A DNA stretch of 64,000 nucleotides from Burkholderiaceae bacterium (lineage in GTDB: Bacteria > Pseudomonadota > Gammaproteobacteria > Burkholderiales > Burkholderiaceae_C), in the NCBI GenBank assembly GCA_023954035.1, contig JAMLIT010000004.1:1-64000 (forward strand), written 5' to 3'. A model generated the notes under the pieces. That model was not told where the DNA came from. It ran no database searches and was given only the letters and a program-made list of their open reading frames with translations. The position numbers were made by a program, and so were the translations under genes. Below, piece by piece: positions 52,421 to 54,682 of the stretch (its first letter is position 1; every line of letters begins with the position of its first letter).

Positions 52421-52732
52421 CTAGTAACTGATCGACATGGACTCCAGGTCGATGCGCACCACGGGTTTGGCCAGGGCTCCGTTCGTCGCGCGGGCAAACT
52501 TCTGAAACCAGTCCGGGTCGGCGAGCAATGCGGGGCCGGCTGCGCGCGCGACGGTCAGCACCTTGTCGGCCAGAAGCACCTTGCCGCTGGCGCGCAGAGG
52601 CTCGCATTCGAGGCGGGTGAATTCGTCGTCCAGCCAGCGGCGCGCGGCCTCCGACGGCATGGGCGCGTGACCTTCAAGGTCGAAACGGAATTCCTGGTTG
52701 CGGTCGACGGTAACCGACACTTCGCTGTGCAT
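52421..52732 (-). CDS. Small conserved protein of unknown function
   Basis: 103 residues, soluble. MHSEVSVTVDRNQEFRFDLEGH is followed by EAARRWLDDEFTRLECEPLRASGKVLLADKVL and DPDWFQKFARATNGALAKP. No signal peptide, membrane segment or known motif. It follows aroG on the same strand with a 60-nt gap that holds a likely terminator, so it is probably expressed on its own or at low level by read-through. Confidence 0.65.
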   Translation of the reverse strand: MHSEVSVTVDRNQEFRFDLEGHAPMPSEAARRWLDDEFTRLECEPLRASGKVLLADKVLTVARAAGPALLADPDWFQKFARATNGALAKPVVRIDLESMSISY

Positions 52733-52792: not shown

Positions 52793-53920
52793 TTACACCG
52801 CCGCCTTGCGGCGCTCAGCGACGGCCGCCGAGAGTTCTCCGAGCGTGGCGAGGGAGTCCTCCCAGCCCAGGCAGGCGTCGGTGATGCTTTGCCCGTAGGT
52901 GAGCGCGGCGGGCTGGTCCTTGCCGGGCGTGAACTTCTGGGCGCCCGCGACCAGATGGCTTTCGATCATCAGCCCGAACACGCAGCGCGAGCCGCCTGCC
53001 ACCTGCGCGGCAATCTCCCGCGCCACGTCTTGCTGGCGTTCGTGCTGCTTGCTGCTGTTGGCGTGGCTGCAGTCGACCATCAGGGTGGCGGGGAGCTTGG
53101 CCGCCTGCAGGTCCTTGCACGCCGCGGCTACGCTGGCCGCGTCGTAGTTGGGCGCTTTGCCGCCGCGCAGAATCACGTGGCAGTCCTTGTTGCCCTTGGT
53201 ATCGACAATCGCCACTTGGCCGTTCTTGTGCACCGACAAGAAGTGGTGGCCGCGGCTGGCCGACTGGATCGCGTCGGTGGCGATGCGGATGTTGCCGTCG
53301 GTGCCGTTCTTGAAGCCGATGGGCGCCGAGAGACCGGAGGCCAGCTCGCGGTGCACCTGGCTTTCGGTGGTGCGCGCGCCGATGGCGCCCCAGCTGATCA
53401 GATCGCCGATGTACTGGGGCGAGATCACGTCGAGGAACTCGCTGCCCGCCGGCACGCCCAGGCGGTTGATGTCGATCAGCAGCTGGCGCGCGATGCGCAG
53501 GCCCTCGTCAATGCGGTAGCTCTCGTCCAGGTAGGGGTCGTTGATGAGTCCTTTCCAGCCCACCGTGGTGCGCGGTTTTTCAAAATACACCCGCATCACG
53601 ATTTCCAGCGTGTCCTTGTACTGCTCGCGCGCCGCCTGCAGCTTGCGGGCATAGTCCAGCGCCGCTTCCGGGTTGTGGATCGAACAGGGCCCAATGACCA
53701 CCAGCAGGCGATCGTCCTTGCCGGCCATGATGTCGTGGATGCTGCGCCGGGTGCGTTTGATCAGGCTCTCGGCCCTGGTCCCGCGAATCGGGAAAAAGCG
53801 GATCAGATGCTCTGGAGGTGGCAACACGGTGATTTCCTTGATGCGTTCGTCGTCGGTATCGCTGGTTTTCTCGACGCTTCGGTACCAGGCATCGCTGGAC
53901 GGATGTGCTGCTGCAGTCAT
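52793..53920 (-). CDS. aroG: 3-deoxy-7-phosphoheptulonate (DAHP) synthase, class I
   Basis: 375 residues from the ATG at 53920. It condenses PEP and erythrose-4-phosphate, the first step of aromatic amino-acid synthesis. Class I alpha motifs: LLVVIGPCSIHNPEAALDYARKL, KPRTTVGWKGLINDP, SPQYIGDLISWGAIGARTTESQ, and the metal/PEP residues in VDCSHANSSKQHERQQ. An open frame continues upstream to a GTG at 54106, but that would read through a terminator and a leader peptide, so the ATG at 53920 (AAAGAG 6 nt before it) is preferred. Expression is probably controlled by attenuation in the 170-nt leader, and enzyme activity by aromatic end products. Confidence 0.96.
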   Translation of the reverse strand: MTAAAHPSSDAWYRSVEKTSDTDDERIKEITVLPPPEHLIRFFPIRGTRAESLIKRTRRSIHDIMAGKDDRLLVVIGPCSIHNPEAALDYARKLQAAREQYKDTLEIVMRVYFEKPRTTVGWKGLINDPYLDESYRIDEGLRIARQLLIDINRLGVPAGSEFLDVISPQYIGDLISWGAIGARTTESQVHRELASGLSAPIGFKNGTDGNIRIATDAIQSASRGHHFLSVHKNGQVAIVDTKGNKDCHVILRGGKAPNYDAASVAAACKDLQAAKLPATLMVDCSHANSSKQHERQQDVAREIAAQVAGGSRCVFGLMIESHLVAGAQKFTPGKDQPAALTYGQSITDACLGWEDSLATLGELSAAVAERRKAAV

Positions 53921-53963
53921 GGATCTCTTTCGAAAGATGGAAAAAAAAGGAGGGCTGAACAAC

Positions 53964-53996
53964 AAAAAACCGCCGGGCTCTGCAGCGTCGGCGGTT
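53964..53996 (-). terminator. Attenuator terminator in the aroG leader
   Basis: On the minus strand AACCGCCG, a 13-nt loop, CGGCGGTT, with TTTTTT completing the U-tract (53969-53964). An 8-bp GC-rich stem with a run of six T, 44 nt before the aroG ATG and 36 nt after the leader-peptide stop. A terminator between a promoter and the gene it serves implies conditional termination. Confidence 0.85.
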
Positions 53997-54032
53997 GGGT
54001 GGGAAGTGTTCAGGTGCTTGCGCGCTTGCCTC

Positions 54033-54089
54033 TCATCCGCCAGGGACCGAGAACCAAAACCAAAAGTAGAAAGCGCTGCGCAATTGCAT
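54033..54089 (-). CDS. Aromatic-rich leader peptide of the aroG attenuator
   Basis: 18 codons from ATG 54089 to TGA 54035-54033: MQLRSAFYFWFWFSVPGG. Residues 7-13 are all aromatic (F Y F W F W F), which is far from chance composition. The codons are TTC TAC TTT TGG TTT TGG TTC. Codons 17-18 (GGC GGA) supply GGCGG at 54041-54037, complementary to CCGCC in the 5' arm of the terminator. A ribosome stalled at the aromatic codons would leave GGCGG free to pair and so prevent the terminator; a ribosome reaching the stop would cover it. No clear ribosome binding site precedes the ATG, so initiation may be leaderless or coupled to the upstream gene. Confidence 0.85.
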   Translation of the reverse strand: MQLRSAFYFWFWFSVPGG

Positions 54090-54130
54090 GAGCGCGAATG
54101 TATCACAGCGCGGGAGCACGACTTGCCCGC

Positions 54131-54682
54131 TCACTGTCCTCGTTTGCGCAACCAGGCCCAAGCGCGCTGCCAGGCGCTGGCCGGCGGTGGGCGCGCGGCG
54201 GGCTCGCTATGCAAGTTATCGCCCTGCTCGTACATGTCGATCAGCAGCAAGCCCTCTCCCAGGGTGCGCCAGGCCAGCAGTTCGACGCGATCGAAGGCCG
54301 GCCCCTCGCGCGGGCTGCGCTGCGCCAGCGCATGGTGCCAGGCCTCGACCGCCTGGCGCAGGCTGCGCAGCGCCAGCTGGTAGGCCCCCATCTCGTAGAG
54401 CGCGTGCCAGGCCGATCCCATGCCGGTGACGAAGAGCTGGTGTTCGCGCACGCACTGCACCAGGCTGGCCGCCTGGCGCGTGATTTCGGGGGTATCGGGC
54501 ATGGCCGGCGCCGCGGGCGCGGCGCGGCGCGTGGCAATCGCCTCATCGATTTGCTGGGCCAGCGCGCCAATGCTGTCGCGCAGCTGGCGCGACTCTTCGT
54601 CGGCGACGCCCGAGCGCAAGAAGCGGCTGACGTCGCCAAACGACTGGACGGTGAGCTGCGAGCGGGAGCGCGATGCGACCAT
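54131..54682 (-). CDS. Conserved protein of unknown function
   Basis: 183 residues, soluble and largely helical: VQSFGDVSRFLRSGVADEESRQLRDSIGALAQQI, RQAASLVQCVREHQLFVTGMGSAWHALYEMGAYQLALRSL, and LAWRTLGEGLLLIDMYEQGDNL, ending in a basic Pro/Ala/Trp tail. I recognise no family. It ends only 41 nt before the aroG leader peptide on the same strand, so the aroG promoter lies within its 3' end or the two are co-transcribed. It follows tldD by 41 nt. Confidence 0.68.
   Translation of the reverse strand: MVASRSRSQLTVQSFGDVSRFLRSGVADEESRQLRDSIGALAQQIDEAIATRRAAPAAPAMPDTPEITRQAASLVQCVREHQLFVTGMGSAWHALYEMGAYQLALRSLRQAVEAWHHALAQRSPREGPAFDRVELLAWRTLGEGLLLIDMYEQGDNLHSEPAARPPPASAWQRAWAWLRKRGQ

Follow-up and report, generated by a model that had tools for sequence, protein, structure and literature searches.

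The closest known system to the leader described here is aroR of Corynebacterium glutamicum, which lies ahead of the DAHP-synthase operon aroF (PMC11802643, PMC4046766); a Phe-Tyr-Phe leader peptide is reported to precede the gene, and transcription to be attenuated in a ribosome-mediated manner. That leader has three aromatic codons and none for Trp, whereas the aroG leader has about seven, usually including Trp, and its host belongs to a different phylum. An upstream open reading frame with one or more Phe codons next to a terminator has also been predicted before aroF in Acholeplasma (motif uORFC-13-1). That motif, a prediction only and from another phylum, includes a ribosome-binding site and differs in structure (PMC8632094). 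The Escherichia coli trp and pheA/pheST leaders also use control codons but act on terminal branches or a tRNA synthetase and respond to one amino acid, whereas the aroG leader would act on the first common step (PMC11802643). Leaderless attenuation is represented by trpL of Sinorhizobium meliloti, whose RNA begins with the leader-peptide ATG; this attenuator lies before trpE(G) and serves Trp, and both the RNA and the peptide that it releases are reported to have functions in trans as well (PMC7298713). The C. glutamicum ilvBNC leader is described, in a title cited in PMC4046766, as being without a ribosome-binding site.

The window analyzed here is a 64,000-nt stretch of contig JAMLIT010000004.1 from a Burkholderiaceae bacterium (GCA_023954035.1). 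Its aroG gene is preceded by the following elements, listed in the order of transcription.

54097..54107, minus strand: extended -10 element TGTGATACATT, with transcription predicted to begin on or next to the A of the leader ATG (54089) and no recognizable -35.
54033..54089, minus strand: leader peptide frame of 18 codons plus TGA, MQLRSAFYFWFWFSVPGG, probably leaderless.
54051..54071, minus strand: seven putative control codons TTC TAC TTT TGG TTT TGG TTC (F-Y-F-W-F-W-F).
54029..54042, minus strand: segment 2, the predicted antiterminator 5' strand, TGGCGG with the downstream GAGAGG.
53985..54015 (limits approximate), minus strand: segment 3, a pyrimidine-rich stretch plus AACCGCCG, predicted antiterminator 3' strand and terminator 5' arm.
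53964..53996, minus strand: predicted intrinsic terminator AACCGCCG-(13 nt)-CGGCGGTT followed by a T run, six T in all.
52793..53920, minus strand: aroG, class-I AroFGH-type DAHP synthase of 375 aa, with Ser in the motif FLSV.

The locus shares with the aroR type an aromatic leader and a putative attenuator before a DAHP-synthase gene, a likeness in working that need not reflect common descent. Our reading, drawn from sequence comparison, is that a classical ribosome-mediated transcription attenuator very probably controls aroG.

The aroG product was assigned to the AroFGH-type DAHP synthases (TIGR00034, E 2.3e-160), and the AroG model NF006723 was matched below its cut-off (543.6 of 568 bits). 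The Ser in FLSV sits at the position that we take to be Phe-type. An earlier note on this DNA had assumed a single aroG; this is wrong, since a second DAHP synthase, 56% identical and without such a leader, is encoded in the same genome (G000:C60:1038-2102) and no type-II enzyme was found in the assembly, which is about 89% complete. Two or more DAHP-synthase matches were counted by hand in 29 of 60 genomes of the family sample. The leader is flanked upstream by a 183-aa frame (54131-54682, minus strand) and aroG downstream by a 103-aa frame (52421-52732, minus strand), neither with an NCBIfam or Pfam match. Among 125 leader loci with long upstream sequence, relatives of the two frames were found in 36 and 49 loci, respectively, and tldD in 97.

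The 18-codon frame with its F-Y-F-W-F-W-F run, first pointed out in the earlier note, is present at 54089-54033. When the 330 nt upstream of aroG were shuffled 5000 times with dinucleotides preserved, a short frame with six aromatics in eight residues arose four times and one with at least seven, the number found in the window, never did, which places the frame far from chance. No Pfam or NCBIfam family matched the leader peptides (one window peptide; six and five from relatives).

Conservation was explored first in near relatives by design, namely the best 80 of 568 relatives (among them Giesbergeria, Simplicispira, Acidovorax, Variovorax, Polaromonas, Ramlibacter and Comamonas) together with the loci of the family genomes. 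The aromatic frame was recovered in 104 of the 107 unique loci of this round. Between leaders, the synonymous codons for Phe and for Tyr interchange and the aromatic run stays, the pattern of changing codons and kept aromatics that the earlier note had proposed to look for. The three misses were two contig ends, L009 and L075 (31 and 178 nt of upstream sequence), and a second copy, L002. An order-wide search of 220 sampled genomes, 172 of them with a match, contributed 28 loci taken among the matches listed, 60 further stretches were chosen from the order-wide table, and another 40 loci came from the family (26 first and 14 second copies). Once four duplicates, L009 (too short), and L177 and L236 (no match) had been removed from the 239 loci, 232 were scored.

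A short frame carrying a run of codons for the products of the pathway (at least five aromatics in eight residues), with synonymous codons interchanging, was found in 168 of these 232 regions upstream of DAHP-synthase genes, and in 166 of the 168 a putative intrinsic terminator lies between this frame and the structural gene. By identity of the DAHP synthase over the aligned part, the frame was present in 115/120 loci at 70% or above, 28/31 at 60-70%, 14/44 at 50-60% and 11/37 below 50%. The 64 regions without the frame belong mostly to more distant copies, and include L116-L118 and L123, which are 75-76% identical. The leader was absent from all 14 scored second copies of the family genomes (15 were fetched, L236 having no match).

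The window copy, a training row of model R1, was recovered by it at E 2.4e-23, and no other copy in the genome scored better than E 0.036. Run with stricter filters on 100 genomes of the order, R1 gave full-length matches in 22, under 12 family labels; 13 of these genomes are training rows and nine are new. By coordinate comparison with the order-wide search, 21 of the 22 matches lie directly before a DAHP-synthase gene, and the remaining one, in G435, was outside that search. Outside the order, the leader was seen in one of the 28 best-scoring loci of 104 genomes with a DAHP synthase (L260, in G287). In 143 genomes of the class, again with stricter filters, R1 matched G287 (E 6.9e-11) at full length, as it did two members of this family, and gave only partial, weak matches in four others.

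Several individual loci deserve mention. L260/L278 of G287 have an aromatic leader and a CCGCC terminator before aroG that resemble, by eye, those of family f4 (L151), and it is possible that G287 acquired its leader by transfer. L116, L117 and L118 come from small genomes (1.7-2.1 Mb, one genus label) with an aroG 74-76% identical, and no aromatic frame or terminator was found there, perhaps through loss of the leader. In G214, which belongs to another family, the copy nearest to the window AroG (L123, 75%) has Gly at what we take to be the selectivity position and no leader, and a more distant copy (L148, 62%) carries one, as if the leader followed enzyme type and not descent.

The terminator hairpin described in the earlier note is as it claimed: the arms AACCGCCG (53996-53989) and CGGCGGTT (53975-53968) form a perfect 8-bp stem with a 13-nt loop, and the T run upstream of aroG has six T, two of them inside the stem. 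Its alternative pairing also holds, as GGCGG at 54041-54037 can pair with the CCGCC of the terminator 5' arm. As in the E. coli trp and pheA/pheST leaders, terminator and antiterminator would share one strand. The 150-nt leader as a whole is unexceptional in stability (z -0.80, with 42 of 200 shuffles folding at least equally well); the evidence for an attenuator lies in the alternative pairing and its conservation. The GGCGG-like element has an exact match in 154 of 166 loci, falling in frame 0 of the leader in 115, frame 2 in 34 and frame 1 in five, and encodes Gly-Gly, Ala-Glu/Val/Asp or Arg-Arg according to the frame. Its occupation of all three frames indicates that it is kept as RNA and not as peptide.

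In all but one of 165 loci (164), the leader element can form five or more contiguous pairs with the terminator 5' arm. Leaders paired with their own arms scored 19.76 against 18.41 (sd 0.11) for permuted arms, with none of 2000 permutations as high; permutation, here and in the tests below, leaves ancestry common to the loci in place. Shuffled leader segments reached the own median score in 1.6% of cases. The earlier note had looked to covarying pairs in both structures for support, and both do co-vary across relatives. In 93 diverse sequences, four of eight terminator pairs and four of seven antiterminator pairs changed on both sides, counts reached by 0/500 and 2/500 shuffles, respectively, and neither covariation score was reached by any of 500. 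The number of further pair types was not exceptional, being reached by 205/500 shuffles for the antiterminator and 44/500 for the terminator. Paired cells made up 90% (antiterminator) and 97% (terminator), and fell to 18-58% and 26-60% when the strands were slid by one to three columns. At slide +3 the antiterminator had five pairs changed on both sides, but with nine such cells against 18 and with 58% of cells paired against 90% unslid. The outermost core pair of the antiterminator fails in 11 of the 93 rows, and the two inner pairs of the extension are broken in 22 and 24 rows, in an alignment with about five rows that are, by eye, off by one column.

Individual loci illustrate these compensations. 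The arm CCGTCGG goes with a leader GACGG (L104, L200, L208) or GACGA (L102), the terminator keeping a G-U pair; in L225 the arm CCGCTGG is matched by a leader CCAGCGG; and in L219 the arm, the leader (AGCGG) and the 3' arm (AGCGG) are all altered together. L082 and L213 have the CCGTCGG arm yet retain a GGCGG leader, with a G-U pair only.

The predicted antiterminator is longer than GGCGG/CCGCC alone. The GAGAG found 3' of GGCGG pairs with the pyrimidines before CCGCC (own score 11.02 against 10.25, sd 0.14, for permuted pairs; 0/2000 as high) and would extend it, the partner of GAGAG being weak in the window. Own antiterminators fold at a mean of -21.6 kcal/mol against -18.7 for chimeras (0/60 permutations as low) and the terminators at -19.5 on average; in the window the two values are nearly equal, -16.8 for the antiterminator and -17.1 for the terminator. 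In 79 antiterminator regions RNAalifold found only the five core pairs, and the inner part, too variable for alignment, was tested by permutation. A protector hairpin (segment 1:2) pairing TTCTC with GAGAG around GGCGG looked convincing by eye and in the window fold. It was rejected, and GAGAG reassigned to the antiterminator, because permuted pairs scored at least as high as own ones in 1997 of 2000 permutations (165 loci) and in 1785 of 2000 (112 non-redundant loci). We regard such a protector, or pause, hairpin as typical of trp-type leaders and not defining; segment 2 can instead be masked by a ribosome that has reached the stop codon.

Measured from the first base of the last aromatic codon, GGCGG begins 12 or 15 nt downstream in 112 of 165 loci; measured in the same way from the last Trp codon, it begins 15 or 18 nt downstream in 104 of the 140 loci that have one. 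With the footprint size that we assume for a ribosome, one stalled in the aromatic run would leave GGCGG free or just free. In many relatives the stop codon lies at least 21 nt past the start of GGCGG, and a ribosome there may not fully cover it.

A candidate promoter precedes the leader ATG at a nearly fixed distance. The genome contains a single TGTGnTACATT with an ATG 5-8 nt downstream. Of 166 loci, 130 have a TAnnnT hexamer whose end lies 6-8 nt from the leader ATG, against 7/166 with such a hexamer in a control 25-nt stretch farther upstream. An alignment anchored on the hexamer (134 loci, 5-9 nt) gave the consensus TGTGcTACATT, judged on the positions outside the selection (TGTGc before it and cAt within TACATT), with the TG of an extended -10, one base ahead of the hexamer, in 123 of the 134. 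No -35 better than control spacers was found in the -10-anchored alignment of these 134 loci, the built-in promoter scan found no promoter, and in more distant families the motif is, by eye, weaker or absent. A start 7 nt past the -10 would coincide with or adjoin the A of the leader ATG, and C stands at -1 in 71% of loci. A Shine-Dalgarno-like 4-mer precedes the leader ATG in only 3 of 166 loci and at least one in-frame candidate aroG start in 143 of 166, the latter test being laxer because several candidate starts were tried. Together, the extended -10 at 6-8 nt and the lack of a Shine-Dalgarno sequence make translation from a leaderless transcript probable for this leader. The candidate promoter, the probable leaderless start and the longer antiterminator go beyond what the earlier note had proposed, and the attenuation of aroG that it did propose is strongly supported by comparison, through the control codons, the GGCGG kept as RNA and the co-varying alternative pairing.

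The mechanism that we envisage is as follows. From the extended -10 promoter, RNA polymerase would begin transcription on or next to the A of the leader ATG, and a ribosome would load on the leaderless 5' end. When charged Phe-tRNA, and probably also Tyr- and Trp-tRNA, is scarce, the ribosome would stall in the aromatic run, the last aromatic codons lying about 12-18 nt before GGCGG. This would leave GGCGG and GAGAG to pair with two partners upstream of the terminator loop, the pyrimidine stretch and CCGCC, in an antiterminator that takes the terminator 5' arm, so that aroG would be transcribed. When charged tRNA is plentiful, the ribosome would reach the stop codon and cover GGCGG, CCGCC would pair with the downstream GGCGG, and transcription would end at the T run. 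Comparison shows the conserved control codons, the GGCGG kept as RNA, the co-varying alternative pairing, the promoter position and the absent ribosome-binding site; we infer stalling, termination, the amino acids sensed and the start site.

The hairpin could instead be a constitutive 5' UTR element or a terminator that belongs to something else, the frame being untranslated, a view that would fit the lack of a Shine-Dalgarno sequence for the frame and the unexceptional stability of the leader. It appears extremely unlikely given the synonymous variation with aromatics kept, two mutually exclusive pairings that co-vary, a promoter motif that keeps its distance from the ATG and the absence of the element at the scored second copies (0/14). 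The frame could also encode a TnaC-like nascent-chain arrest peptide that senses a free aromatic amino acid, stalling then not being due to uncharged tRNA. TnaC is reported to be stalled by free Trp (PMC8429421), and many near relatives share a Ser-x-x-Gly-Gly-Arg-Glu-like tail behind the strongly conserved aromatic peptide. That tail, however, is conserved as RNA in three frames (Gly-Gly, Ala-Glu/Val/Asp, Arg-Arg), the residues past the run shifting with the GGCGG frame, and conservation of peptide as opposed to RNA around the stall site was not found. The aromatics vary in number, order and spacing between leaders (YFFGYFWF, FFFGFF, FYFYFYGF), and for a biosynthetic gene that follows a terminator, induction by an end product would run in the wrong direction. 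An arrest peptide is in our view very unlikely.

Within the attenuator reading, the leader could respond to Phe alone, the Tyr and Trp codons being passengers that only tune the pace, and to this we give close to an even chance. Phe is the commonest control residue, with 735 (TTT 453, TTC 282) of the 1167 aromatic codons in 166 leaders, followed by Tyr with 281 (TAC 166, TAT 115) and Trp with 151. Among 139 full-gene loci, all 127 with a scored leader have Ser at what we take to be the Phe-type position, the two Gly-type copies, L123 and L002, are without the aromatic leader, and the 10 Ser-type loci without a scored leader include the duplicates L025, L035, L046 and L056, the contig ends L009 and L075, and L116 and L118. 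For the nearest tested case, the F-Y-F leader of C. glutamicum, a response to Phe but none to Tyr is reported (PMC11802643). Against Phe as the sole signal, the best ten-residue stretch has Phe in 166/166 leaders but also Tyr in 160, Trp in 141 and all three in 139, and in 120 of the 140 leaders scored for it the distance from the start of the last Trp codon to GGCGG is 14-18 nt, at which a stall should still free the antiterminator. Joint sensing of all three amino acids was the earlier note's proposal. We tentatively consider, as rather less than an even bet, that one leader on a leaderless transcript reads the charging of Phe-, Tyr- and Trp-tRNA jointly, a shortage of any one sufficing, and so sets the first committed step of aromatic biosynthesis. 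This would be the standing arrangement in a lineage whose sampled genomes yielded no TrpR, and the short terminated RNA, beginning with the ATG, may also act in trans as in Sinorhizobium. With E. coli as the positive control, none of 60 family genomes reached the cut-off for TrpR (PF01371), one giving a weak match below it, and a published survey reports that TrpR and TyrR are absent outside gammaproteobacteria (PMC5343134). Because all 127 scored-leader genes have that Ser, Phe is the safest signal for the aroG leader, and sensing of Tyr and Trp is plausible.

In searches against the Rfam leader families, which we take to comprise the Trp, Phe, His, Leu and Thr leaders, the leader had no match; only a tRNA passed the gathering score in the window, and raising E to 5 added one chance hit of 14.5 bits to an unrelated lncRNA family. 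A search of the open literature turned up no account of such a leader before aroG in this order, older comparative papers possibly holding a prior prediction, and the main text of an attenuator survey names no aroG or aroF (PMC2965389). As read from its sequence, the aroG leader follows the classical attenuator logic; its aromatic run is mixed, its start is probably leaderless, and it would control the first common step.

The leader offers a testable account of how entry into the shikimate pathway may be controlled without TrpR in a large bacterial group. With the control codons, the promoter and the three pairing strands marked in more than 100 loci, point changes could be used to test every step. 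It is also a well-conserved candidate for attenuation on a leaderless transcript, beside the Sinorhizobium trpL and C. glutamicum ilvBNC leaders.
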